From Bolinopsis microptera (lineage: Eukaryota > Ctenophora > Tentaculata > Lobata > Bolinopsidae): a DNA stretch of 64,000 nucleotides. The notes beneath the pieces were generated by a model. The model worked only from the letters and a program-made list of their open reading frames with translations. It was not told the origin of the DNA and made no database searches. Both the position numbers and the translations under genes were made by a program. Of the stretch, positions 18,801-55,000 are shown piece after piece (the stretch's first letter is position 1; the number at the start of each line of letters is the position of its first letter). The DNA lies in NCBI RefSeq assembly GCF_026151205.1, contig NC_087074.1:1488001-1552000 (forward strand), given 5' to 3'.

Positions 18801-21800
18801 CCTTGTCACAATGTCACTCCCGCTACCCTCCAATTCTCAGAATCTTTGTCGAAATAATCTGTTAGTATCGTCTGCAGGGTTGACCCGTCTCAATTTAACT
18901 GACAGTTTAGCTGGCTGAGGAGAGAGACTGGAGGGAAAAGGTGGGACACACACGTCGTTATAAAACGTTTTTCTATGGTGGTACTGCAGAACAACGCCAC
19001 AAACGCGAGCATATTATTCATCATAAACGTATCCCTGATCGAGTTTATACCGTGAAGTAAGGATGATATAGTATAGCTGAGCGAGTTTATAGCGTGAAGT
19101 AAGGATGATATGGTATACCTGAGCGAGTTTATAGCGTGACGTAAGGATGATATGGTATCCCTGAGCAAGTTTATAGCGCGAAGTAAGGATGATATGGTAT
19201 CCCTGAGCGAGTTTATACCGTGAAGTAAGGATATGATGATATGGTATCCCTGAGCGAGTTTATACCGTGAAGTAAGGATGATATGGTATCCCTGAGCAAG
19301 TTTATAGCGTGAAGTAAGGATGATATGGTATCCCTGAGCGAGTTTATAGCGTGAAGTAAGGATGATACGGTATCCCTGAGCGAGTTTATAGCGTGAAGTA
19401 AGGATGATATGGTATCCCTGAGCGAGTTTATACCGTGAAGTAAGGATGATATGGTATCCCTGAGCGAGTTTAAACCGTGAAGTAAGGATGATATAGTATA
19501 CCTGAGCGAGTTTATAGCGTGAAGTAAGGATGATATGGTATCCCTGAGCGAGTTTATACCGTGAAGTAAGGATGATATAGTATACCTGAGCGAGTTTATA
19601 GCGTGAAGTAAGGATGATATGGTATCCCTGAGCGAGTTTATAGCGTGAAGTAAGGATGATATGGTATCCCTGAGCGAGTTTATACCGTGAAGTAAGGATG
19701 ATATGGTATCCCTGAGCAAGTTTATAGCGTGAAGTAAGGATGATATAGTATACCTGAGCGAGTTTATAGCGTGAAGTAAGGATGATATAGTATACCTGAG
19801 CGAGTTTATAGCGTGAAGTAAGGATGATATGGTATCCCTGAGCAAGTTTATAGCGTGAAGTAAGGATGATATGGTATCCCTGAGCGAGTTTATACCGTGA
19901 AGTAAGGATGATATGGTATCCCTGAGCGAGTTTATAGCGTGAAGTAAGGATGATATGGTATCCCTGAGCAAGTTTATAGCGTGAAGTAAGGATGATATAG
20001 TATACCTGAGCGAGTTTATAGCGTGAAGTAAGGATGATATAGTATACCTGAGCGAGTTTATAGCGTGAAGTAAGGATGATATGGTATCCCTGAGCGAGTT
20101 TATACCGTGAAGTAAGGATGATATGGTATCCCTGAGCGAGTTTATACCGTGAAGTAAGGATGATATAGTATACCTGAGCGAGTTTATAGCGTGAAGTAAG
20201 GATGATATGGTTTCCCTGAGCGAGTTTATACCGTGAAGCAAGGATGATATGGTATCCCTGAGCGAGTTTATACCGTGAAGTAAGGATGATATGGTATCCC
20301 TGAGCGAGTTTATACCGTGAAGTAAGGATGATATTGTATACCTGAGCGAGTTTATACCGTGAAGTAAGGATGATATGGTTTATAGCGTGAAGTAAGGATG
20401 ATATGGTTTATAGCGTGAAGTAAGGATGATATGGTATCCCTGAGCAAGTTCATACCGTGAAGTAAGGATGATATGGTATCCCTGAGCGAGGTTATAGCGT
20501 GAAGTAAGGATGATATGGTATCCCTGAGCGAGTTTATAGCGTGAAGTAAGGATGATATGGTATCCCTGAGCAAGTTTATAGCGTGAAGTAAGGATGATAT
20601 GGTATCCCTGAGCGAGTTTATAGCGTGAAGTAAGGATGATATGGTATCCCTGAGCGAGTTTATAGCGTGAAGTAAGGATGATATGGTATCCCTGAGCAAG
20701 TTTATAGCGTGAAGTAAGGATGATATGGTATCCCTGAGCGAGTTTATAGCGTGAAGTAAGGATGATATGGTATCCCTGAGCGAGTTTATACCGTGAAGTA
20801 AGGATGATATGGTATCCCTGAGCGAGTTTATACCGTGAAGTAAGGATGATATGGTATCCCTGAGCGAGTTTATACCGTGAAGTAAGGATGATATGGTATC
20901 CCTGAGCGAGTTTATACCGTGAAGTAAGGATGATATAGTTTATACCGTGAAGTAAGGATGATATGGTTTATAGCGTGAAGTAAGGATGATATGGTTTATA
21001 GCGTGAAGTAAGGATGATATGGTTTATACCGTGAAGTAAGGATGATATGGTTTATAGCGTGAAGTAAGGATGATATGGTTTATAGCGTGAAGTAAGGATG
21101 ATATGGTATCCCTGAGCAAGTTTATAGCGTGAAGTAAGGATGATATGGTATACCTGAGCGAGTTTATAGCGTGAAGTAAGGATGATATGGTATCCCTGAG
21201 CGAGTTTATAGCGTGAAGTAAGGATGATATGGTATCCCTGAGCAAGTTTATAGCGTGAAGTAAGGATGATATGGTATCCCTGAGCGAGTTTATAGCGTGA
21301 AGTAAGGATGATATGGTATCCCTGAGCGAGTTTATACCGTGAAGTAAGGATGATATGGTATCCCTGAGCGAGTTTATAGCGTGAAGTAAGGATGATATGG
21401 TATCCCTGAGCGAGTTTATAGCGTGAAGTAAGGATGATATGGTATCCCTGAGCGAGTTTATACCGTGAAGTAAGGATGATATAGTATACCTGAGCAAGTT
21501 TATAGCGTGAAGTAAGGATGATATGGTATACCTGAGCGAGTTTATACCGTGAAGTAAGGATGATATGGTATCCCTGAGCGAGTTTATAGCGTGAAGTAAG
21601 GATGATATGGTATCCCTGAGCGAGTTTATAGCGTGAAGTAAGGATGATATGGTATCCCTGAGCAAGTTTATAGCGTGAAGTAAGGATGATATGGTATCCC
21701 TGAGCGAGTTTATAGCGTGAAGTAAGGATGATATGGTATCCCTGAGCGAGTTTATACCGTGAAGTAAGGATGATATGGTATCCCTGAGCGAGTTTATAGC

Positions 21801-24800
21801 GTGAAGTAAGGATGATATGGTATCCCTGAGCGAGTTTATACCGTGAAGTAAGGATGATATAGTATACCTGAGCAAGTTTATAGCGTGAAGTAAGGATGAT
21901 ATGGTATACCTGAGCGAGTTTATACCGTGAAGTAAGGATGATATGGTATCCCTGAGCGAGTTTATAGCGTGAAGTAAGGATGATATGGTATCCCTGAGCG
22001 AGTTTATAGCGTGAAGTAAGGATGATATGGTATCCCTGAGCGAGTTTATAGCGTGAAGTAAGGATGATATGGTATCCCTGAGCAAGTTTATAGCGTGAAG
22101 TAAGGATGATATGGTATCCCTGAGCGAGTTTATAGCGTGAAGTAAGGATGATATGGTATCCCTGAGCGAGTTTATAGCGTGAAGTAAGGATGATATGGTA
22201 TCCCTGAGCGAGTTTATAGCGTGAAGTAAGGATGATATGGTATCCCTGAGCGAGTTTATAGCGTGAAGTAAGGATGATATGGTTTATAGCGTGAAGTAAG
22301 GATGATATGGTATCCCTGAGCAAGTTTATAGCGTGAAGTAAGGATGATATAGTTTACAACTACCGATTTTAAAGGCACAAAAGTTAAAAGAACACAAGGA
22401 TATATCTTGTGAACTTGGCTAGTATATATGAAACATTTGATATGGAGTTGTAGAGGGAGTTATGTGCCTCGCCGGGCTAAAGTAGTGGATGACCTTGCTG
22501 TACGGCAAGTTAAACAAGGATCTGAAACTACTAGGTTCCGTACAGACTCAACTCTGCACCCGTGTCAATATGTTCATTATATGCAAGCCTCTTGATTTAT
22601 AATCACCGAGTCTAGTAATTGTTTAAGAGAGTTCTCTGGCAGTTACGAAACTCGAGAGACTGTGGGATACTGAAGGGAAAGGAAGCAGTTCTAACGAGCT
22701 CTTCTCATACACAAGGATATATCTTGTGAACTTGGCTAGTATATATGAAACATTTGATATGGAGTTGTAGAGGGAGTTATGTGCCTCGCCGGGCTAAAGT
22801 AGTGGATGACCTTGCTGTACGGCAAGTTAAACAAGGATCTGAAACTACTAGGTTCCGTACAGACTCAACTCTGCACCCGTGTCAATATGTTCATTATATG
22901 CAAGCCTCTTGATTTATAATACACATTTATAAGGGAATCGTTAAGTTACAACTTATATCATAAATTCTAGACTTCAGTATTTATATTCTAGAGAAGTATT
23001 TATATCCTAGAGAAGTATTCATATTCTAGAAAAGTATTTATATTCCGCTACAAAATAACAGACAGCTTGGATCTAGCCGCTTTATTAGATACAAAATTCC
23101 AAGCTGTTGCCCGTGTCTAGTCACCGATAAGCAAATGCGATCTGTTCGTTTCCTGCAGAGAAATTTAGGCCAGGGCTTGTTCGTAAAAATATGAGCATTC
23201 TGACATGGGTTAAACGAATGCTCTCGATGAAATTATAAGCTGTCTGTTTGTAATATTTAATCTAAGGATACAATGTTGTCCGATAAGTCTGAGTGCTAAA
23301 GTCTGCACTTTGCACGTTTATCTCTCAGTCAATATTGGCCAAATTCGTTCTGATATGAATTGCTTCCATCATTCAATCAGTTAAAACATAAATGAAATCA
23401 ATTTTTTCGTCGTACCCCTTCCCATAAATAATTAATGCTTTTTAATTTTGATATAAATTCTTATTCCTTTTCACTATCTTTGTCTAACCTAATAAATTGA
23501 ATAGTAGATCTAGTAAGTTATTGGCCAAGGTGCCGATTCTCCTAACTCCTTTCCTTTATGATTCGCTCGTGGTCCTAAAGATGCCAGCACGGCCGAAGCA
23601 AACCCGAATTTCCTGTTCTTCTCACGGTAGCGTTCTCTTTCAACAAGGTTTTTTAATGCACCGAATCCGGATGCGCTATTGGATTGAAAAGTTCATCCTG
23701 GCAAGCCAAGGGGAGGGGGGTGTCTTGGTTTGTGCAATCCTCTAAAGAACTGTAAACAGAAACTGAACTATGCCTCTATAAGTTTATGTCTGGAAAGACT
23801 TTTGACTTCTGAGGCATCTGTGGATGGATGGGTTCTGATGTGCAAATGATAATATGGTGCTCGTCATTTGTTTGGAATGCACCGGACTTGTATTTAGTAG
23901 TGTCCTGACTATTTTATAGATATCCTGGGATTTCTGATCCTTTTATGTTTTTACTGTAATTAGTTTGCAGTCTTGGTGCTTGGTCCGCTTGACATTTGGT
24001 CATAGCAGAGGATTATATTTCCGATTTCGTGGTTTGTTTTAAAGCTGTGGTACGACCTTTTTCGGGCTGCTTATTATGTCCTGTATTGGTATGACATGAT
24101 ACGTTTTTTCTAGGGAGAAAACCTCTAACTGATCTAATTTTCGGAGGTCAGCGATTTGAAATAAATGTTGTTGGGTTGTATAATATATAGGTTGGCATCC
24201 ATTTTTTCCTTCTTAAGTTCTCTTGAAGTATTGGTTGAAATCTACATCTTGCCTTGTTAACATATTATATAGACACGGCACTATGGCCGTCCTTATGGGG
24301 TTCCTAGCTGGGCCACCCACGAATTCCAGAGGTGACTGAGCTTGCTAATCCAGGAAGCTCCCGAGTCCCGGTGTGATAGGCAGACTATTAATACTTTTAA
24401 TACTTTCAAAATAACCACCTTGCAACGTACAAAGGACTAAGCCGTTGAACAAGTTCGGAAGGAACTTACTTGAATATCATTAATCATATCAGTACTATTT
24501 GCAAAGTTATTTAGATTTGCGATTTCTGACTTACTATAGGTGTAGGCCGTTGCACCTCAGGTCATATTATCCAGATGTGTCATAGGAGGCATCTGTGGAT
24601 GGATGGGTTCTGATGTGCAAATGATAATATGGTGCTCGTCATTTGTTTGGAATGCACCGGACTTGTATTTAGTAGTGTCCTGACTATTTTATAGATATCC
24701 TGGGATTTCTGATCCTTTTATGTTTTTACTGTAATTAGTTTGCAGTCTTGGTGCTTGGTCCGCTTGACATTTTGGTCATAGCAGGGGCCAGTAGGATTGT

Positions 24801-27800: not shown

Positions 27801-30800
27801 ACTTCTTAGACTTCATAGGCATTAAAACCACTAGTAGGAACCCGTGATTCTCTAAAGTGGTGTTAAGAGACATTAAGACATTAGACAGTGTTATTTATTT
27901 AATTTGTGATTATGACACCACCTAGGGGTCCATTTTTCGGGACCTTGGCCAATTTTGTATATCTTTATACTGACCAAAAGGCCATAAAAGCATTTGACAC
28001 AGCCAAAAAAGTTTCAAAAGTATATCTCTCACGGTTTTCGCGGAAGGTTTTGTTAAAGTTGAAGTTGTGGTGTCAGTAAAATGGTACCGTAGATTGGGGT
28101 AAAATCGCCGTGTCGGGGAACTTCGCCACTATTTTTCAAATAATCATTTTACTGTTTTGAATTGTTAGGAGATCGAGTTTTTGTATAGTATTGTGTTGAA
28201 AAAATGGTTATAAAGGTATTCCTATTCAAAAATAAACGTTTACTATGTTAATTAAACTCAGGCAACATGAAATAATGCAATAAAGTGGCTAAAATTTCCT
28301 GCTTGCATATTTCCCATATTTTACAATTATATCCTTAATAAATTCTGTGTGACATCATTAGCATATGTCCTGTTCATTTAAGGGCGAATTTAGTTCGCTG
28401 CACACAACTGATATTATAAAGTTTTCAAATTTGTGTGTGACGAAGTTACCCTCTTCTGATCCCATCTGTTCGGCGAAGTTTGGCGCGAAATTCGCGCGCG
28501 GCTGGTGAAGTCACGCACGTGTATTGGCGAAGTTTGACTACATTTCTACTTCATCCCGGCGATGTTACCCGCAGCATGGCGATGTTACCCCGGCGACCAA
28601 ATTGCCCATTGTAACACGCAGGCTAGAGCTAGATAAGTAAAATTGGCAGGTATATCAAGGAAATATAATTGAGTTTCGAGTGGTATGGTGCTTAGCACCG
28701 AATATGGTACAGTTTCAGAATGGCGAAGTTACCCCATATTGCAGGGTAACTTCGCCCTGATTTCAGTGGCACCAATCTAGCTGACTATTTATGCCTGGCT
28801 GATGTGGTTCATACGAAAACATTTGCTTTACCAATCCTGTTCATATGAGCTATAAACTTTTTCAAGTACTCGTGTCGTATTTTCTAAATAACATGAAATA
28901 GCTGTAAAACATGGCGAAGTTCCCCCATTCTACGGTAACAGATATATATATATATAAGACCAATGCTTGTTAAAAGGCACGCTAAAAGAATGGTTTCAGT
29001 GCTTGATTCTTGCTCGATGTTGTAACTGTCTTACCAGATGAACTTCGGTACGTGGATAGGGGTCGTTCACATCCCCTCAGCTCCGTAATCAACCGTAATC
29101 AAGACCCAACCCCCCCTCCTGACAACACTATTACGTAATCATGGCTTGAACCCCCCCCCCCCCCCCCCCCCCTTTTGACTTTTTTCCTTGAAAAAACCTT
29201 TCTTTACGCTGGATGCTACCCTGATCATAATGATCCGAAATCATTGTTATTATATCCGGAAAATTTTGATTACGTAATCAACAACCAAACCCCCCCCCCC
29301 CCCCCCCCGTAATCAACCATAAGCATTTGGAACCCCCCCCCCCCCCTTAGGCTGATTACATAATATGTGAACGACCCCATGGAGAATGATGAAGCGGACT
29401 GGTTGTTGGGTCTGGGGGTCCAGGGACTCAGGTCCTGGTTGCATAGAAATTGCGTAGAAACGCTTTATTCAGGATCGTTACTATATCGTTACTATCTGAA
29501 GCCCTACAACAAACGCAATTTAATTTATTTTACCTTCATCGTATATCAATGTGAGAGTCAATCCCTACCCCTCCAATGGATTATTACAGCAGTAGCTTAG
29601 GTTGTGGTTAGATACTCCGACTCGTTGCGGCCGAACAGAACCTACTTGTTTCTGTTACATTAAACTAGAAAGGGTTTAATACAATGCATTTATCATTCTC
29701 CCAAAAGGAAGCCTATCCCTTGTATGCAAACGCGAGCTGATTAATCATAAAATCCAATGACTAATTAAAGTTCAGAAAATATAACATAATAGGTCCCCCT
29801 TATTATAGTTGCGCCTTGCAGGATCATTATGTTCCTTCAGCTGAACAACGGATCAGCTAATGAGAGCCTCCTCTCGAGAAAGGAATCGTCGGTAACTCGG
29901 TAATCTGCCGATGCACATCTGGGGCACACCTGGGGCACACCTGGGGCACAAACTCGGGCACACCTCGGGCACACCTCGGGCACACCTGGGGCACAAAGCA
30001 CACCTCGGGCACACCTCGGGCAGAACCACCTGGGGCACACCTGGGGCACACCTCGGGCACATCTCGGGCACATCTCGGGCAAAATTCGGGCATGGTAATT
30101 GGGAAACCTTGGGAAAAGAACCTGGGCACATCTCGGGCACAACCACCTGGGGCACACCTGGTGCACATCTCAGGCACACCTGGGGCACATCTCGGGCAAA
30201 ACCACCTGGGGCACGGTCATTCGGGCAATTTGAATTATTATTTATTACTATGATGATAGATATCATTATTTATATTACTTATATTGGTGACAGTATTAAA
30301 CTATATGTATGAGCAATATAATTTTCAGGGACACAATTTTATTATTAAAAAAATTTATTTATTAACGAGCAATTGAAAAATACGATTGATCTGTTCGTAA
30401 TGTATTTAATAAATTTAATAGGTAAGCAATATTATATTATTAAAGTATCAATCGGAACATCTCATAACCATTAAAAACTATAAGTATTACTGTAACTACA
30501 AAATAAATCAGTATATCCTCTTGGGAGGGAGTGCTTCTCCTGAAGCGTGGAGTGTGCGAAGCACAGTTTGGTTCCGGTTGCAGATATCCCTGGCCACTGG
30601 TAGAAGGTTTTTAAGCGTGGGATTTATCAGCTGGAGGAGACCATGTCGGAGAGAAGGTAGGTCAATCCTCGCTGCCTCTGCTATGCAGCGCTTCCTGCCG
30701 AAAAAGGACTCAGATATCCCCTCTGCAGCGAGTGCCTCCTTCTTCGTAGCACCATTCCGGACACGTGCCAGGATCCTGTCGTACTTTGAAACTTCTCCGT

Positions 30801-33800
30801 CGATGGTGAAGGTGCGGCTCGAACCAGGATAATGGGCCGGAACAGGACCGGTGGGAGCTGTAGCGGCAGCCGGAACAGCAGCAGGAACAGTAGCCGGAGC
30901 TGGTACAGTAACCGGAGCCGAAGCGGGAGCCGGAGCGGGAACTGGAACATGTGCTGAGGTTACTGGAACGACAGGTCGAGGGGGAGGAGGAGGAAGAACC
31001 ACAGGTGCTGTAGGAGCAGCAGGGGTGTGAGGGGGAGGGGGAGACGGTCTGACGACAGGAGAGGAGTGTGTATCGCAGGGGTCTATCGTAACCACTATCT
31101 GCGTACCGTCTGGCTCGTTACTCTGTCCACTTCTGACTGTTCGGATGCAGTGGGGGCAGGTGAGGGCTGGGATAACAGGAGAGTAGGAGGATCGTGGACA
31201 CACTGTGTTGATGTGACCTCGTGCGCCACAATGACTGCAAGTTGGGGGAGGAATAGGTCGGGATAGTCGAAGTCCGGATCGTGTAGGCATGATGAGTAGT
31301 AGTAGATATGTTGTGGTAGTAGAACGAAAACTGGAATGAGGAACCTATGTGATAACAACCTTTATACCCGAGGGTTTTGGGATCAGAGCTTGTTAATTCA
31401 CGGTTCGGATCGCATTGATCGCATGGATCGCATGGCCCAACAAGATGGTAGCCATAACACGATAACATGGATCACGTGGTGAGTATTCGCAGCCCCTCTC
31501 ACGTGACGTTATGGCAAGAAATCAAAATGCCTTCGCCTCATCGACTGTTCGGTGGTAATCGGAATGTTTGATCTAGTTATGTGACGCGATAAGAAGAACA
31601 ACAAAGTCTTGCGATCGTGACAAATATAAGGTACTCTTCTGTGACGTCCCAGCAAGCAGTCAAAATTCCAGTCGAGATATATAAACATGAGCAAACAGCT
31701 AATACTATCATTCGATATGGCTCTCACTTTCCTCTCCTACGAAGATCTCAGAAGAACTGGAGTCCTCTCTTCAGAAGCCACAGCTCTACAGTACTGCCTC
31801 GATGTGGAACTCCTACGTCCTAACCATTTCTGTCCAGAGTGCCACACCTACATGGAGCTACGATCCTGCGCCTCCACAAAGTACAGCGATGGCTACTGTT
31901 GGTCCTGTCCTGGCGGTCAGCACCACCTCTCTGTCAGAGCAGGAAGTGTCCTCTACAACCGCAACATTACCTTTATCAACTTCCTCCACCTACTTTGGAT
32001 CTTTGTCAACGGTACCAGCGTTGCTGATGCAGCCAGAATCCTGTCGATGAACGAGAAAACAGTGCGATCCCTTTACAAAGCTATTCGACAGTGTATGGTG
32101 GAGGACCTTCTCGAGAACGGAGCAACGAGGAAGATTGGAGGACGCGGGCACATCGTGGAGATCGACGAGTCGAAGTTCGGCAAACGGAAGTACCACCGTG
32201 GACGACGAGTGATCGGGAAGTGGATCGTTGGAGGCTACTGCAGAACTACCGGCGAATGCTTCTTGGTGGAGTGCACAGACAACAAACGGAACCACCACAC
32301 TCTTCTTCGTCTAATCAAGCAACACGTCGCTCCTGGGACCATCATCCTTACCGACAAGTGGAAGGGGTACAACGCCCTCCGACACCACGGCTACACCCAC
32401 TTGGTCGTAAACCACAGCAGAGGCTTCGTCGACCCCGTCACCGGTGTTCATACGAATACATGTGAGGGCATGTGGTTTCACGCCAAGAGGCACATGCTAC
32501 GAGGACACGGCAGGACGCGAAGAGACTCCTCAGCCCTCTACATCGCCCTCGCTGAATTCATCTGGCTGAGAAGGAACCACCTGACCCGCTCCGGCCCTTC
32601 CGTCAGAAGATATTTTAACCAGGAGCTCCCGCAGTTGATGCGTAGAATTTTTGATTAGAATGTGTTTAATAGTTTTGTAAATATACCGATTGATTATGTA
32701 ATACATTGCTAACAGTTTAATGAAATTATTATGTACAGTTATGGACAGTTCAATCGTGTTTTTCACTTGTTCGTTAATAAATAGATATTAGATATGTGTC
32801 TCTGAAAATTATATTGCTCATATATATTATATTGCGATAGTATAATACTAGTATAACACTATCGCAAATATAAGTAGGTAATAAATGATATCATTGAGGT
32901 TAGTAGCCCAGCCATAATTCATTGCCCGAATGACCGTGCCCCAGGTGGTTTTGCCCGAGATGTGCCCGAGATGTGCCCCAGGTGTGCCTGAGATGTGCCC
33001 CAGGTGTGCCCCAGGTGGTTCTGCCCGAGGTGTGCCCGAGATGTGCCCGAGATGTGCCCAGGTTCTTTTCCCAAGGTTTCCCAATTACCATGCCCGAATT
33101 TTGCCCGAGATGTGCCCGAGATGTGCCCGAGGTGTGCCCGAGGTGTGCCCCAGGTGGTTCTGCCCGAGGTGTGCCCGAGGTGTGCTTTGTGCCCCAGGTG
33201 TGCCCGAGGTGTGCCCGAGGTGTGCCCGAGTTTGTGCCCCAGGTGTGCCCGAGGTGTGCCCCAGATGTGCATCGGCAGATTACCGAGTTACCGAATCGTC
33301 AACTTAATATTTCAATAGTTAACCTCAATTTTACGACAAACTAGGCGCTCTGGGGGGCTAGGGGTGTTGCGCGAGCGTCAGGTAGTACGTGGTCTGCCAA
33401 CTGGCAAAAATTTTTTACGACCTCGGACCCCCTGTGGCTTTAACTATGAACATCTAGCTTTTTAGAAGGGACCACTTGAGAGCTTATTATTGTATTTATA
33501 GGATCTCGTTGACTCTTGTTACAGGATATTATTTATAGCTGGGAGCAGATAAAGAATCTATTCTATGATCCCGTTTATTTTCAAAAGAACCACATGGCTA
33601 AAAAGTTCAATGAAGTGATGGTTGGAAGTATAATTTCTAACTATACGTAGTATGATTGAAAAAGTTGGACCCCCAAGTGGGGTCAAAAACGCGAATTAAA
33701 TAGGTAATAATTATTTTAGTTTCTTGAGTCTCCCCAAATCCTGGAGTCGGCCTCATTTTAGGGCACGCACACATTTGGGGTTGAGGTTCGATGTTTTGCA

Positions 33801-41655: not shown

Positions 41656-44600
41656 ACATAAAATGAAAGTTATAAATTTGAATTATACTTTTGAGCGTGC
41701 GGTTAAGGAATAAACTACTCGACGGAATGAATCCAATAGGGAAAACTGTCCTTAAATGCAAGTGTTTTGAATTCTTGTTTTGAATTCTTGTTTTGAATTC
41801 TTTTTTTTCTGTAACTAAACGCCTGATAATTTCTTGAAGTTGGATGATCAAAATAATGAAATATAATATAATACGTAGGGGTTGTTCTCATATTACGTAA
41901 TCAGCCGAGGGGAGGGAGGTTTCCAAATGATTACACTATAGTGTAGTTTTGACAAAATATCTATGTGTATTGTGTAAAACTGATTACAGAGGGGGAGGGG
42001 GGCTAAAAATTGTCCAAAAAGTGATTAAGTAATATTATGTGAACGAACCCATAGTAAATATTCATAGTTTTTTTTCTACCCACGTAGTAAATATTGAGAG
42101 GGAAGATACCTGTCGTGTCTGTACGTCTTCGCAATCCCGTGATATAATATTATTACCCATTATTAGTAGCGAGCATTTGATATCATTTATTAAGAGTATA
42201 TTACTTATGAGAATTAAGAATTATAGATTTCATTTAGATATATAAGTCATAAATCCGGATCCCGACGGCACTATCGTTGGCCTTGACTAAACCTGTCTCA
42301 CAAAATCCATGAACATCGTAATTAAAATATTATGTGAGCTTGTCTCCCCCACCGGATGACATTTTACTTAATACATATAGACACCGTACTGGGGGTGGGG
42401 GGGGGCAACCATATTAAAGGGTTTTTTCGATTTTGACCCGAGGATATATAATTTAATATGGTTGCCCCCCCCCCCCCCCTCCCCCCCTCCCGTACTACTC
42501 GAAATTAAAAGTTATAAACGGCTACTGGAGGGGGAAAATGACACATTAGTGAACAGACTGAGACAATATATTTTAATAAATTAATATCAAAGGTTCTAGA
42601 ATTCTCTGGCCCGTCTGGGTCTCTATAGCACTCAAGATGTCAGGGGAAGAAATACGAATGTGCATGTAACACCTTTAAGTAAAGATTAAATTTTCTGAGG
42701 TGGCTTAAAATTGTGGTTATAAAAGATAAAAATCTCACAGCATTGTGGGAATGATTGTTTATTTTGCAGCAGCCTCATTGGACACAATGTCAGAGTGTGT
42801 GTCTATACTTCTCTGATAGTGTATAGGAATGTTATTACAATTGTAAGAACATTTTTCTTTGTGAGCAAGGATAGAGAAATTCCGGCGTAGTTTATGTTTT
42901 GGTCGAAACTGAAATTTCATAATCTTTGCTCTTTGCAGTAATCAAATCAGGTTTTTTTTCATTTGTTTATTAATCTTCGGCTGAGTCGACCGAGGAGATC
43001 GCATAGATCCAATGGACTCTTAGCTAGTCCCTAGACTAGGTGACACTGGGATTCAAACCCTGAAACCTCTGCGCAGAAGGCGGATGCTCTAACCACTAGG
43101 CCACCTCTTTCAGTTACACTGGATGGTCGTGACCTGGACTAGGTTTAAATTGAAGGGAGTGATTATCTTGATCAACTTGCTTCTCCCACCGTAGACGAAC
43201 ATGTGGCACAAATTGGATTAGTTTCTTCATTTTCCCTAATTTTTGATTACTTTACCCTGGACCGTGTACGTGACCTTGGTTGGGTTTATAGCTGCCACGC
43301 AAGGCTTTCTATAGAATAGTATTAGGCAATGGTAGGACACCGGGCAGAAGATTTCACAAAAACTGCAACCTGTCCGACGTAGCCACTTTGCTAATTGCGA
43401 GCTCCGGATTACTTGTAATCCGGGTTATGTGACTGTATAATGGTCAGTTGGACCTCTATAAAATACATATATATACTGCTTTAATACAGATCACTTCAAA
43501 ACCTATCCATCCTAATAATATTGGCCTAACTTGTTCAGTTTTTCGTTTAAGAAAGTTCTGGATAACTTTAATATTTTTATGATGAAATAAACTTTGATAT
43601 GATTTTCCCCCTGAAATATTATTGATACACCTGGATGAAGGATATGGGACAAATTTTATTATTTATTTAACTTATAGTTTCCGATGATTACTACTATCTA
43701 AAAGTATCATACAGTAAATATTTTAATTTGATCAAAATCGTCTTGCCAACTTGTACTTTTAGAGCTGCCGAAACAATTTAGCAAAAATGTACGTTATTTA
43801 ACACGATCCCTGGTATTTAACAAGCCGCCGCTTCTTGACGTCTTCATTACTTACCCCGACACAGTAGTATTACTTCAGGAAGTTGCACCGTATTTTAAAT
43901 TCATCAAACGTTCATATAAAAATAAACATTATCTAATTCTTTGCTACTTTCCAAGAAAGTCAAGGCATATAATGGGAAACTCGGGAGAAGTCGACATAAC
44001 AAACGCAGTGACAGTAACCACCAGCGTAATGACTAGCAGCAGTGGCCTGGCAAGCGCCCAAGCTGACACCTACGCCTACCTGCTGGAACCCTATTTCTGG
44101 ATCAGTGTACCATGTGTACTGCTCAGCATCATGACTATAGTACTCAGCAGCTTCGTTATTGACCACTATCGCAAGAGCCAACTAACAGTGGTTCCTCTGA
44201 TCTATACTATCATATCAACAGTTGACATCTTGACGGCAGTTGGGGTGATATACCAGTCGGTAGTCACGGCGCTGTTTCATAAACGTATCATTAAAGACTG
44301 GAATGATGTGGACAGGTACCATGCTGTTATCAGCTACACACTCATTGCTGTAAGCTACAGATCCTCTATATTTAACAACTTGGCGTTGGCTGTTTACCGA
44401 ACTACTGTTATACTCCGACCTTTCCGGCTGATAAACATGAAAACAGTAATAGTGGCTTGTGCGCTGTATAGTGCAATCTGGGTCGCAATTGCAGGGATTG
44501 ACATTTATTTGTCGTTTGAGACAGCAGGAGGAAGACCAGGACAAGGATTTGGTTACCAGACATACATTAAGGCCACCACCATGGGCAAGGACATTGAAGA

Positions 44601-47600
44601 CTTGTTCGACTCGGACGAGTGTTACACCAAACTGGGGATAACACCATTCAGCATGAACCGCTTCAACTTCAAATCAGAAATCGCCCTGTGCGACTCAAAC
44701 TTATACTCAGTGCTAGAATCCACCCTCCGAGCGCTGTTCACGGTGGTGCCCTTCTTGGTGCCGGTTCTGGTGATCACCATGACCTGTGTGGTTCAGGTGA
44801 TTGTTCTCTACAAACCCAGGAGTTGTCCGACCAGCACAGAACAGAGACATGCCACTATCACCGTGTTCCTGATGTCGGTCCTGTTCGTGGTCTGTAACTC
44901 CGCGTATGCTATCTACACCCTTCTTCTTAAATTCAAGGTCATATTTGATCCCCAGATACTGACAATGGCCGTGTTGGGGACAGTGTTGCCCATACTGAAT
45001 GCAGCACTGAATCCTGTTATAATCATCTCCAGGTGTAGCGGACTGAGGGGCAAGTTTGTGGAGAAGCTGTCGATGAGAGAGAGGATGTCGGTTAGAGAGA
45101 ACACTATAGCACTCAGAAAAATATGAGGAATTGGGAGGTAAAACGATTGGACAAGATACATTATGTGCCAAGTCGTGTAACTCAAATATTTTGAGGATTG
45201 ATTTTAGGCCCGAGTTTTGTTTGTGTCTGTAAGAGAAATTTGAAGGGACGAGAAGAAAATCAGAAAAAATATATATCTATATGACTGTAAGCATATTGAT
45301 TATGATAGATTGATCATTAATGATTTATTGTTTGGTTGATAATATATTGATTAATATTACCTCTCATAGGGGTATATTATAAGGTTAAATTTATCATTAT
45401 ATTACATGTTTTTACCTCACGGACAAAAATTGGGCGGTTTTTAGTGACAATTGTGAATTGCGATTCAATTCCAGCGACCTAGTTTTTTATTTCATATATT
45501 TATTACAATCGTATCGATGAGAGCAAGTTTTTCCTTCCACATTTTTGTCCATGGGATGCTTTTTCGTGAGTCATATTTACAATTTTTTAATTCAGTCCCA
45601 AGCTTGGACTGGAAAACACGAAAAAAAGGTAAATGTTTTAATCGTTTAAAACTATTTTGTATGATCAGTATATTAATGTCTAATTCATTATCATTAGCTG
45701 AATAATATGTCTTTCTTCGATAAGTAATGGTGACAACTGACAGTGGTATAGTTCGAAATAAAAATTGTTTTCACTATCTGTTGCTAATCGGCAGTATAGT
45801 AACCATAATTTTATTCCATGGTTTGTACGCTAAGGTTTAGTTGAGATTGAGGGTTTTGAGTAAGGTTAGATAATGACTAATGATGGTTAAAGTTTTAGGT
45901 ACAAGAGATTAAGACACGTCTAAACCCAATCTGACTAAGTTATTATTTAAAAATGTAAGTTACAAACCTCCGCTCGATTGTTCTTTAGAAGTCTGAGAAC
46001 TTTAGCCCGATAGTAGTATTTCTCCGAGAGTACAGCACATAACGTGTCAACCTGCAAACAAACATTACATTATATGGATTCAGCTGACTACGATGGTATT
46101 AAGTAAAAAGCTGATAAGCTTAAACAGAGCATTACATCATGATTCTATTTTTAGTTTCATGGAACATCAAATTTCCAGAATTAAACCATTGATTGACAAT
46201 GCCAATTTCATTCCCAATGAAACGACAGGAATATTCTCTGTTTTTTTCCTCAGCAACCTCAAATTTGGCGCGAAAAAGCTAACCTGGACGGAGGTTAAGG
46301 GAGTTCCAGCATCGTTCACATATATCGTCAATTCATCCTCCATATCTGTCAAGATGTTGTCATTATCCCCATCAATGTTCCTCATACAGATGTTCTTGGG
46401 GCTCTGAACGTGAGTAATGTACATGTAGACAAGGTCTCCGATCTCTGGCAGCTCCACGTCGTCAGGTTCAACCTGTGCGGGACTGTACGAGGGCTCCTCT
46501 TCTTCGGAACTCATTGATTCTTCGTCGCTGGAATCTTCCACTCTGGGGGAGAGACAAAGGGGGTAATGGGTTTTTCGGGTAAAATCAAGTTGGAGCTCGT
46601 TTTTAGAGATAGGTTGCAAAACACACCATTTTTGGAGCAACACTTACTTAGAGATGTAGTTCTGATGTTATTAAACACAGATAATACTAATTATAAATTG
46701 AACTATTTCCGTTGTCCTGGAGACTTAATGAACTCTGTATTTGACGGTAAAACTGTGTTAAAATGGGTATTTCTTTATCTTACTTGTAGGAGACAGCCAT
46801 CTCAGACTTGAGAGTTGGGATTTCCGACAGATCCGGCTGTTTGGGGATGCAAATGTCGTATATTGAGGTGTTTGGGATCGCAACTCCGGATTCAACCTGA
46901 AACAAATGTCGTATATTGAGGTGTTTGGGATAGCAACTCCGGATTCAACCTGAAACAAATGTCGTATATTGAGGTGTTTGGGATAGCAACTCCGGATTCA
47001 ACCTGAAACAAATGTCGTATATTGAGGTGTTTGGGATAGCAACTCCGGATTCAACCTGAAACAAATGTCGTATATTGAGGTGTTTGGGATAGCAACTCCG
47101 GATTCAACCTGAAACAAATGTCGTATATTGAGGTGTTTGGGATAGCAACTCCGGATTCAACCTGAAACAAATGTCGTATATTGAGGTGTTTGGGATAGCA
47201 ACTCCGGATTCAACCTGAAACATTACGATAATACAAACCATAAACTTTAAGAGAATGTAACCAGACACTTTGATTCGGGTGTTGCTAATAACAGGTAAGC
47301 ATAGTTACTATTTAGAATGAGTTATATTACGGCAATGACACTAAAAGTTGCCAAACTTAATTCTGTTTTAAGTATAATTTCAGTTTGATATAGCGTATCA
47401 TTGCATCTACTTCTACTGTATGTACTTCTCATCAAATATATCATATTCGCACAAAACATACCAGAGATTTGTTGTAAGCTTCGTCTGTGTCTTTGTTTTC
47501 CAAAATAACTTCGATCCAATGAGCTGAAATGGTAGTATTTAAATAATTTAATTAATTTGGAATTGAAATAATATAACAAGAAACATTGGCGAGCCAGGGA

Positions 47601-52000: not shown

Positions 52001-55000
52001 ATTTTCTTCAGCAGAAATCTCAGAATGTTAAAAAATGAATGTTAATGTACCGGTAATCATCAAAATGTAATATACATAATCACTGAAACCATGAAACATA
52101 ATGAGTACATTTACCAACACTAAACATTATAGAGGATCACTATATCTGAGATTATCTCATGATAAAACAAGAGATAAGCAAAATAAACAAATAGCGTCCC
52201 CAAGAGACACTTACATTGAGTCTTGATTTGAAACCGTAGTGAGCCTTCTCGCTTTTAACAGCCTCAACAGTCATCTGGAGCGACTCACAGTCTCTGTTCT
52301 CTGTTATGTTCTTGAACACGTCACAAATCTCCTTACTCCACTCCTCCTAGTTAATTGGGTAATTAGTTAATTAGTTAACATCGATCAGTTAATTAAAAAC
52401 TGAGCTTAAATAAAATTATCCACAATCCAAAATATAGGTCCTTCATTTCTTATCTCTTGACTCTTTACTTATCTATTACTTACTTAACTCTTATCTATCT
52501 ATTATTTCCGTGTCATCGGTATTTACTTTAATTCAGTGTGTCCCGTTAAATAATATATAAACGGTCACTCAACAAACACTCTTACATTTTACTTGATTAT
52601 TTTTTTAAACAAAGAAAATGTGTGCCAGTTATGTGATAAGATATCAATATATACACCATATCCAATTACCATATCCAATTACATTGTGATATGAATTGTT
52701 AATTAAGACAAGCTGGTTAGCAATAGGAAGCCTCGTCAGGCAAAGCCATTAGTCTGTATCGTGCAATAAGGATTTAAGCTGATTGGTCACCCAATTAAGC
52801 TGATTGGGTGCCTGTTAACTGCGTGTTAACTAGGTTCAATTGGGTTCAGTTGTCGGTCACCCTGTCGATGTTTATTTAGACTCACTGATAGGATTTCATT
52901 AGAATGTTTGGAATTAAATAAACAACCACAAGCTCCACATTTCAAAAGGTTCAACGATCTGTAAACATGTACCACCTATACATGCTATAGTTACACTCAG
53001 AAATGATGTCTAAGGATGATTCTAGCTACGGACGGGTCATCAAATACACTAGCTAGGTAGTTGAAATACAAGTCTGTAGAAAAGTTGGTAAGAAAGTTCA
53101 GAACGGTTAAGTGCTGCTCAAGGTTCACATTTCAGCAGTAACTAAAACTACAAAGTAACCGAGAACTAACCTCCAATTTTATTAAAGTTTGTTTTTAAGA
53201 CCACACTCGAAGTTATTATAATACTCCTTTTTCAAGTTACAATCAACTAATAACTGCCATATAAGCTATAAGTTGCTGTATTTTGTTTCAATTAAAAACC
53301 ATTCAACAAGAGACAGGGGCAGAATGTTTTCTTGTTAAAACGATGTCACTACAATCTCATATGACAGCACTTCAGCTCGTTAATTATAATGTCTCAAGGG
53401 AATCAGTTTACCGTTACGGTTGAACAATACAACACGCACTTCGAGATGGCAGGGCCTACTCTCATGCTGTCTATATGTGATGACTAGCTCTGAAAAACTG
53501 GGGACAACTGGGGAATGATCCCAGAACCTCGACATATCGCGTGTCTTGCTCTACCTATTGAGCTACTGTCCCTGATTCTCAGAGCGAAATCACCACTCAT
53601 ATACAGCACAATTTCATGCTTTGTGTGGAGTAATGTAAATAGTGTGGATAAATGCGAATATATAATCTAATAACAATGCAACACGCACTTCAACAGGTTA
53701 CACAACTTTAAATTAATCCTCACAAACAAACCTTGGGTGTAATACTGCCGAGACTGCATCTTCAACAGGTTACACAACTTAATCCAAACAAACAAACCTT
53801 GGGTGTAATACTGCCGAGACTGCATCTTCAACAGATTACACAACTTAATCCAAACAAACAAACCTTGGGTGTAATACTGCCGAGACTGCATCTTCAACAG
53901 GTTACACAACTTAATCCTAACAAACGAACCTTGGGTGTAATACTGCCGAGACTGCATCTTCAACAGGTTACACAACTTAATCCTAACAAACGAACCTTGG
54001 GTGTAATACTGCCGAGACTGCATCTTCAACAGGTTACACAACTTAATCCTAACAAACGAACCTTGGGTGTAATACTGCCGAGACTGCATCTTCAACAGGT
54101 TACACAACTTAATCCTAACAAACGAACCTTGGGTGTAATACTGCCGAGACTGCATCTGAAAGCCTGGCCGTTAGGATACGGGAACTTCTTCCTGCGGATC
54201 CTATCTAACGTCACCCACTCAATGTTACCGTAATCAACAAAGAACAGCTTCACTTTCCAGGCGTCCCTCCATTTGAACTGGGGTGTTGGGCTGTTCGGCA
54301 GGAACAGAGCTCTGTAATGAGGACAATTGTAAGGTTTTAGAGAATATTAGCAATATATAATGATGGAGTATATTGTTATATATAGTTCAATATATTGACC
54401 GAGATATTAGCCCTATTGAAATTGGAGTAAGTTGGAACCACCAGTGAACAGGATGATCTTTAGTATGTTACCTCCAGCTAAGGTATGATAAGTAATTTAA
54501 ACCCTGTTTAATGAAACCTGGAAATATGCTAGGAATGTAGTGTACTTAATAAGAGTCAGATTACAGAAAAGCATGGGGCTCCAATCAAAATAATCCAGTA
54601 AAATACAACGAGTAATAAATAATCCACTCTGGGTAACACAGTAACAGAGTAACAGAGTAACAGAGTAACAGAGTAACAGAGTAACAGAGTAACAGAGTAA
54701 CAGAGTAACAGAGTAACACAGTAACACAGTAACACAGTAACAACAGAGTAACAGAGTAACAGAGTAACAGAGTAACAGAGTAACAGAGTAACAGAGTAAC
54801 AGAGTAACAGAGTAACGGAGTAACAACAGAGTAACATAGTAACAGAGTAACACAGTAACACAGTAACACAGTAACAGAGTAACAGAGTAACAGAGTAACA
54901 GAGTAACAGAGTAACAGAGTAACACAGTGACACAGTAACATAGTAACACAGTAATAGAGTAACAGAGTAACAGAGTAACAGAGTAACAGAGTAACAGAGT

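Follow-up and report, generated by a model that had tools for sequence, protein, structure and literature searches.

A Merlin-type DNA transposon of Bolinopsis microptera with a second, conserved gene for a putative accessory protein

DNA transposons of the Merlin superfamily are characterized by target site duplications (TSDs) of 8-9 bp and by terminal inverted repeats (TIRs) that start with 5'-GG and are 24-462 bp long (PMC8101967). In the same survey TIR elements in general and the IS1595 family, which is related to Merlin, are said to encode just a transposase, and tandem repeats are described inside two Merlin families of Symbiodinium; the terms "accessory" and "additional ORF" are absent from its main text. 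A report of a second Merlin gene was not found in the open-licence literature of PubMed Central, Repbase entries lying outside this search. CACTA (En/Spm) elements encode TnpA in addition to TnpD and have many short subterminal repeats at both ends, the sequence of which diverges between families; in Spm/En, where TNPA recognises these repeats, neither protein is dispensable, and the two act in trans (PMC2613891). PIF/Harbinger elements and their relatives combine a DDE transposase with a second open reading frame (ORF) that contains a DNA-binding domain, i.e., Myb/SANT or, in ISL2EU, YqaJ, and the function of the second ORF is also called unknown in that article (PMC4482050). Accessory proteins also occur in lineages of the Kolobok superfamily, where those named are nucleases, a helicase and KolX; in KolobokP they lie on the opposite strand (PMC9587614). 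Here, a Merlin element with a second gene, ORF2, is described. It lies in a stretch of 64,000 nucleotides of the genome of Bolinopsis microptera (the window, C3:1488001-1552000), and its relatives were searched in the whole assembly of 264.65 Mb in 232 contigs.

The element shares with the Merlin superfamily the DDE_Tnp_IS1595 transposase, the 8-bp TSD, the 5'-GG ends and the long TIRs, and it differs by the second conserved gene and by long arrays of short units (Table 1). The usual transposase-only organisation does not apply, as ORF2 is present and conserved. The element has a length of 3.4 kb (29891-33292) and is flanked by perfect copies of GAATCGTC. The termini, GGTAACTCGGTAATCTGCCG, match at 20/20 positions, and the TIRs open with GGTAACTC. 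About 250 nt of the arms pair at 99% (the outermost 253 nt, two TSD bases included, 29889-30141 versus 33042-33294), and a further 86 nt pair at 90% (30144-30229 versus 32921-33006). The transposase matched PF12762 with an E value of 2e-15 and 57.5 bits (cut-off 27), and D160, D223 and E260 are its proposed DDE triad, assigned by motif. Alignment with the transposase of the closest other family sets in at residue 14, and the second Met, at about 31717, may therefore be the actual start. The initial annotation had described a 260-aa minus-strand ORF in a Merlin element between perfect 8-bp duplications, with a C-x2-C-x4-H-x4-C knuckle, a long Pro/Ala-rich stretch and a C-terminal block resembling a helix-turn-helix (HTH), and all of this was confirmed; the second Cys/His module (C45-x2-C48...C72-x2-H75) is an addition. 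Our preferred reading, which we regard as probable as a whole, is that the element is an autonomous-type two-gene Merlin transposon with an IS1595-type DDE transposase, and that ORF2 would be an element-encoded, end-binding accessory protein, working like TnpA of CACTA or the second protein of Harbinger.

Table 1. Features of the Merlin element (positions in the window).
Feature	Positions	Strand	Basis or remark
Left TSD, GAATCGTC	29883..29890		perfect 8-bp match with right copy
Left long TIR with subterminal array of 11-bp units CACCTSGGGCA	29891..30229	+	21 units with at most 2 mismatches
ORF2, 260-aa accessory protein (putative)	30508..31290	-	ORF, genome matches, constraint
C-terminal HTH domain, CCDC106-like (aa 160-260)	30511..30813	-	predicted helices; profile matches of relatives
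Pro/Ala-rich linker (about aa 84-155)	30826..31041	-	length varies between copies
Second Cys/His module C45-x2-C48-x23-C72-x2-H75 (aa 45-75)	31066..31158	-	invariant in 5/5 sequences; same ligand order in clade B
Zinc knuckle C18-x2-C21-x4-H26-x4-C31 (aa 18-31)	31198..31239	-	four ligands invariant in 5/5 sequences
Intergenic region between the divergent genes, 396 bp	31291..31686		no match to the 11-bp repeat
Merlin transposase, 323 aa as called	31687..32658	+	PF12762
Right long TIR with inverted array of 11-bp units	32921..33292	-	24 units with at most 2 mismatches
Right TSD, GAATCGTC	33293..33300		perfect 8-bp match with left copy

ORF2 had 116 matches in its own genome, four of them full length at 98-100% identity (the window's included), and it is thus neither a single-copy host gene nor a chance frame, two possibilities by which the initial annotation could have failed. 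The transposase had at least 127 matches (124 of 154 candidates were scored, and the transposase counts are therefore lower bounds). Four full-length transposase copies of the window's family (fam1), the window's included, were 99-100% identical, and ORF2 was found alongside all four, upstream and on the other strand at a distance of 385-404 bp, with an intact frame in three cases and a broken one in L014. The four insertions have distinct TSDs, each a perfect 8-bp repeat (GAATCGTC, AAAACATG, ATAGTATA and ACTTAATT), and, thus, the two-gene unit has moved as one piece. Partial copies were also present. In L002 (C9), ORF2 is intact, but the transposase gene lacks its 5' part and there is no matching TSD. 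L004, a derivative of 1.6 kb, retains the two ends and an intact ORF2 but no transposase; its flanks agree at 7/8 positions. Further TIR matches, e.g., C9:9414940-9415262 and C13:833623-833845, are pairs of inverted fam1 ends only 0.1-0.3 kb apart, i.e., short, non-autonomous derivatives resembling miniature inverted-repeat elements (MITEs).

ORF2s also accompany transposases that are 57-65% identical to that of the window (clade A). The fam2 copy L031 has a transposase with 65% identity, the TSD AAACCAAC and the ends GGCAACTTGTACGAACACCG (20/20 matching), and its divergently placed ORF2 is organised likewise, except that the linker is longer, and measures 346 aa from Met. Six fam2 copies were seen at both ends: the flanks were perfect in three (L031 and copies on C6 and C12), agreed at 7/8 positions on C11 and did not match on C4 and in L033; among the fam2 copies that hold both genes, three of five had a perfect TSD. 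In the fam3 copy L034 a divergent ORF2 adjoins a truncated transposase. The fam4 copies (L036, L039) are degenerate, with ORF2 and transposase pieces on one strand, and in fam5 (L019, L020, L023, L027) and fam6 (L024) parts of ORF2 lie beside arrays; for fam6 no transposase was read. L023 and L035 are chimeric deletion products, in which internal deletions fuse ORF2 pieces in frame to transposase pieces.

Because several ORF2s weakly matched the Pfam model CCDC106 (PF15794; E 0.0057-0.088), the genome was searched with this model. It yielded 30 matches, 18 of which lay within 600 bp of independently found clade-A ORF2 matches and were individually weak (E 0.8-3.8 for the genome). Five were ORF2s of a distant Merlin clade (clade B), three of them less than 1 kb from a transposase match and two further away, and seven lay elsewhere (five in a cluster on C10, one on C5 and one on C12). 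Clade-B transposases are 36-40% identical to that of the window. L041 has the perfect TSD GAGCACAG and the ends GGCAGTATCGAGATAGCCCG (20/20); its transposase frame (295 aa) and its ORF2 (288 aa) are convergent. L042 has the perfect TSD GAATATCC, ends matching at 17/20 positions, a shortened transposase frame of 266 aa and ORF2 on the same strand, and L040 has a transposase frame of 320 aa and an ORF2 that is missing part of its N-terminus. The ORF2s of L041 and L042 contain CX2CX3HX4C followed by CX2C...CX2H, the ligand order of clade A. Comparison of the C-domain profiles of the two clades gave an hhalign probability of 95% (E 2.3e-8, a single comparison), versus only 11.5% for the Cys/His parts, and the C-domains of the two clades are very probably homologous. 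The proposal that a two-gene Merlin represents a new subgroup thus held for the two genes, but the two-gene state is not limited to one subgroup, as a much deeper clade also carries a homologous ORF2.

The linkage of the two genes was quantified. An ORF2 match was found within 3 kb of a transposase match at 45 of 106 places, compared with a mean of 0.59 and a maximum of 4 in 300 rounds of uniform random placement, a null model that ignores the clustering of transposons. For 25 of the 38 transposase matches of at least 500 bp ORF2 was nearby, in 11 cases upstream on the opposite strand, in 10 downstream on the same strand and in 4 downstream on the opposite strand. The arrangement is divergent in fam1 to fam3, convergent in clade B1, and on one strand in clade B2 and the degenerate fam4. 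The other 13 long matches had no ORF2 within 3 kb (at C1:6155483 one lies 6.4 kb away). ORF2 accompanies all four fam1 copies with a full-length transposase, including the one with the broken frame, but some other copies lack it, namely L033, C5:242428 and the fam3 copy L056. In L056 both end arrays and an intact transposase of 328 aa are retained. This copy and the 13 long matches argue against universality. The linkage therefore persists despite changing order and strand, yet it is not universal.

The initial annotation had asked whether ORF2 is conserved at the protein level, and the substitution pattern supports this. Either the Cys/His part or the HTH domain was compared in 42 pairs, and in 41 of these the proportion of non-synonymous changes (pN) was lower than that of synonymous changes (pS). 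This included all 39 comparisons between families (Fisher p 0.031 to 4.6e-18, uncorrected), while the three pairs within fam4 and fam5 were not significant, one of them having pN > pS with few changes. The window ORF2 and the intact ORF2s of L002, L003, L004 and L008 differed, when pooled, by six synonymous changes and one non-synonymous change (Cys/His and HTH parts, linker excluded). In other frames the ratios were mostly near or above 1; a single antisense frame was the exception, with between-family values of 0.43-0.84. The use of protein-guided alignments and the interdependence of the pairs both bias pN downwards; with this bias, ORF2 appears to be under purifying selection.

The end arrays are the putative target of ORF2. 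The window contains 53 units within two mismatches of CACCTSGGGCA (11.3 expected), 45 of them inside the two arrays, and none was found elsewhere in the element, the intergenic region included. Short subterminal repeats at both ends and none in the interior are also the pattern of TnpA-type CACTA elements. The lag-11 self-match of the left array was 0.59, compared with at most 0.36 in shuffles, and lag 11 was the strongest of lags 5-30 in 7/7 arrays of six families (self-match 0.51-0.79, best lag of shuffles at most 0.43). The unit sequence differs between families, i.e., CCTGGGGCACA in fam1, ATTAAGACAAC in fam2, CTTAAGAACCG in fam3, GCTACTAACCG and additionally GTCTATGCAAC in fam4, GTTAAGGCACG in fam5 and CTTGGGGCACA in fam6, the register having been set by eye for all families and the strand likewise for fam5 and fam6. 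Two clade-B arrays have periods of 14 to 15 bp (and 29) and palindromes GGTCCRYGGACC. The presumed recognition helix contains SxSFFxRKR in both fam1 and fam6, which have near-identical units, and RSHFxRKR in fam2 and fam4; the fam1/fam6 pair is suggestive, though anecdotal.

In the proposed mechanism the HTH domain of ORF2 would bind the subterminal arrays, the 11-bp units of which correspond to about one helical turn. With at least 20 units per end, inverted between the ends, many ORF2 molecules would coat both ends on one face of the DNA. Through the zinc modules and the flexible linker, ORF2 would hold the two ends together, bring in the transposase for synapsis and cleavage, or do both, and copies with arrays but without ORF2 would be mobilised in trans. 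The similarity to CACTA comprises the second element-encoded protein and the many family-divergent repeats at both ends. The transposase and the TSD are unrelated, the CACTA termini and 3-bp TSD being absent here, and the two proteins are encoded by two separate genes and not by spliced forms of one as in CACTA; in addition, binding by ORF2 is putative. A different role for the same domains would be that of a transcriptional regulator or repressor, with the promoters of the element, not the transpososome, as its site of action. The divergent genes of the window, separated by only 396 bp, fit this role, HTH domains and zinc modules are typical of regulators, and TNPA of Spm/En has both roles (PMC2613891). 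However, end binding is favoured because the intergenic region holds no 11-bp unit. In addition, the shared divergent promoter suggested in the initial annotation is not general: order and strand are not conserved between families, and, thus, no shared promoter has been maintained. A mainly regulatory role is therefore considered unlikely.

The domain structure of ORF2 is the next line of evidence. The predicted helices of the C-domain comprise residues 163-178, 183-190 and 194-207, followed by one long helix, and in a fold comparison the three-helix model gave weak matches to HTH DNA-binding domains. Generic HTH models match the L041 ORF2 below their cut-offs. PF15794 (gathering cut-off 30.2 bits) did not match the window ORF2; its positions 114-219 match ORF2s with E values of 6e-5 to 0.09, the best single protein (L042) reaches 23.4 bits, and the domains of one C11 frame with repeated domains sum to 32.3 bits, while host-like frames exceed the cut-off. 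Because single ORF2 domains stay under the cut-off, the domain is called CCDC106-like. It is predicted to be an HTH domain that is weakly related to vertebrate CCDC106, a p53-interacting protein, the N-terminal part of which is a long helix instead of Cys/His modules (PMC10713525). Unlike the second proteins of PIF/Harbinger, which also have other TSDs, ORF2 thus combines Cys/His modules with a CCDC106-like HTH; no Myb/SANT model was among the Pfam matches of 11 ORF2 sequences, although a missing match does not exclude the domain. Kolobok differs as another superfamily with other kinds of accessory proteins.

Both Cys/His modules, which presumably bind zinc, are present in the ORF2 of at least five clade-A families and of clade B. 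Between families, their conservation appears to equal or exceed that of the C-domain (mean column identities of 63% in 5 sequences and 53% in 6, respectively, the sets being different). This conservation and the perfect CX2CX4HX4C motif would also fit a gag-like nucleic-acid chaperone, whose knuckle would contact RNA or single-stranded DNA and whose HTH-like domain would mediate oligomerisation or contacts with proteins. The matches of the zf-CCHC profile (PF00098) in relatives also speak for it, although they were below the cut-off of 20.8 bits (E 0.0026-0.015, at best 18.2 bits in L023); the window ORF2 was not matched in spite of the motif. The second module after the knuckle, the different knuckle spacing in clade B and the strict end arrays, which point to a double-stranded DNA target, argue against a chaperone, and we regard it as quite improbable. 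The linker may reach extreme lengths: at C7:2037408-2045858, N- and C-terminal ORF2 matches lie about 7.5 kb apart within frames of 731 and 2080 aa, which may reflect an enormous expansion of the repeat-coded linker.

The arrays could instead be bound by the N-terminal region of the transposase, ORF2 being conserved for nuclear import, target choice or the countering of host silencing. A CX2C...CX2C set lies in the N-terminal region of the transposase, and residues 103-136 weakly match an HTH-like model (Sigma70_r4_2, E 6e-4, below cut-off); the retention of transposase and arrays without ORF2 in L056 speaks for this division of labour and against the end-binding role. However, arrays of at least 20 short units would be more like the sites of a separate repeat-binding protein, and the chance of this alternative is considered to be slight. 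The idea that ORF2 is a random frame or a host gene captured once is largely refuted and has hardly any probability left, since, in spite of host-like CCDC106-domain frames in the genome (C10:10831278-10845802, including two frames in L043 over the Pfam cut-off, seen without Cys/His modules), the two-module ORF2 occurs in at least five clade-A families and clade B under frame-specific constraint.

The two L043 frames (C10:10830500-10833000) show no Cys/His modules, further exons not having been examined, and have no Merlin transposase match nearby; they are host-like genes, possibly related to the transposon ORF2. A 385-aa frame at C5:7318077-7319225 matches clade-B ORF2 at its N- and C-terminal parts, also without a Merlin transposase match nearby, and is either a further ORF2-like lineage or a captured copy. 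As a speculation, to which we give a rather low probability, the two-gene state could be ancient in animal Merlins, with a zinc and CCDC106-type HTH protein as the standard transposase partner co-evolving with family-specific end arrays, and CCDC106, the vertebrate p53 regulator, and the host-like genes of the C10 cluster could descend from it by domestication. With the CCDC106-domain link, a transposon origin becomes a testable hypothesis for a vertebrate protein that is under study in cancer. If the end-binding role of ORF2 is correct, Merlin would be, besides Harbinger and CACTA, a further superfamily whose elements encode a partner protein, the reconstitution of Merlin transposition in a test system may need this second protein, and the diverging pairs of protein and 11-bp array in one genome would be a natural experiment on the evolution of transposon DNA-binding specificity.

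Elsewhere in the window, 19213-22323 and 53667-55744 are long tandem-repeat arrays that are open in several frames (TISSLLHAINSLRD-type repeats) and are probably satellites, not genes. A 384-aa frame on the plus strand (43972-45126) resembles, by eye, a seven-helix receptor.

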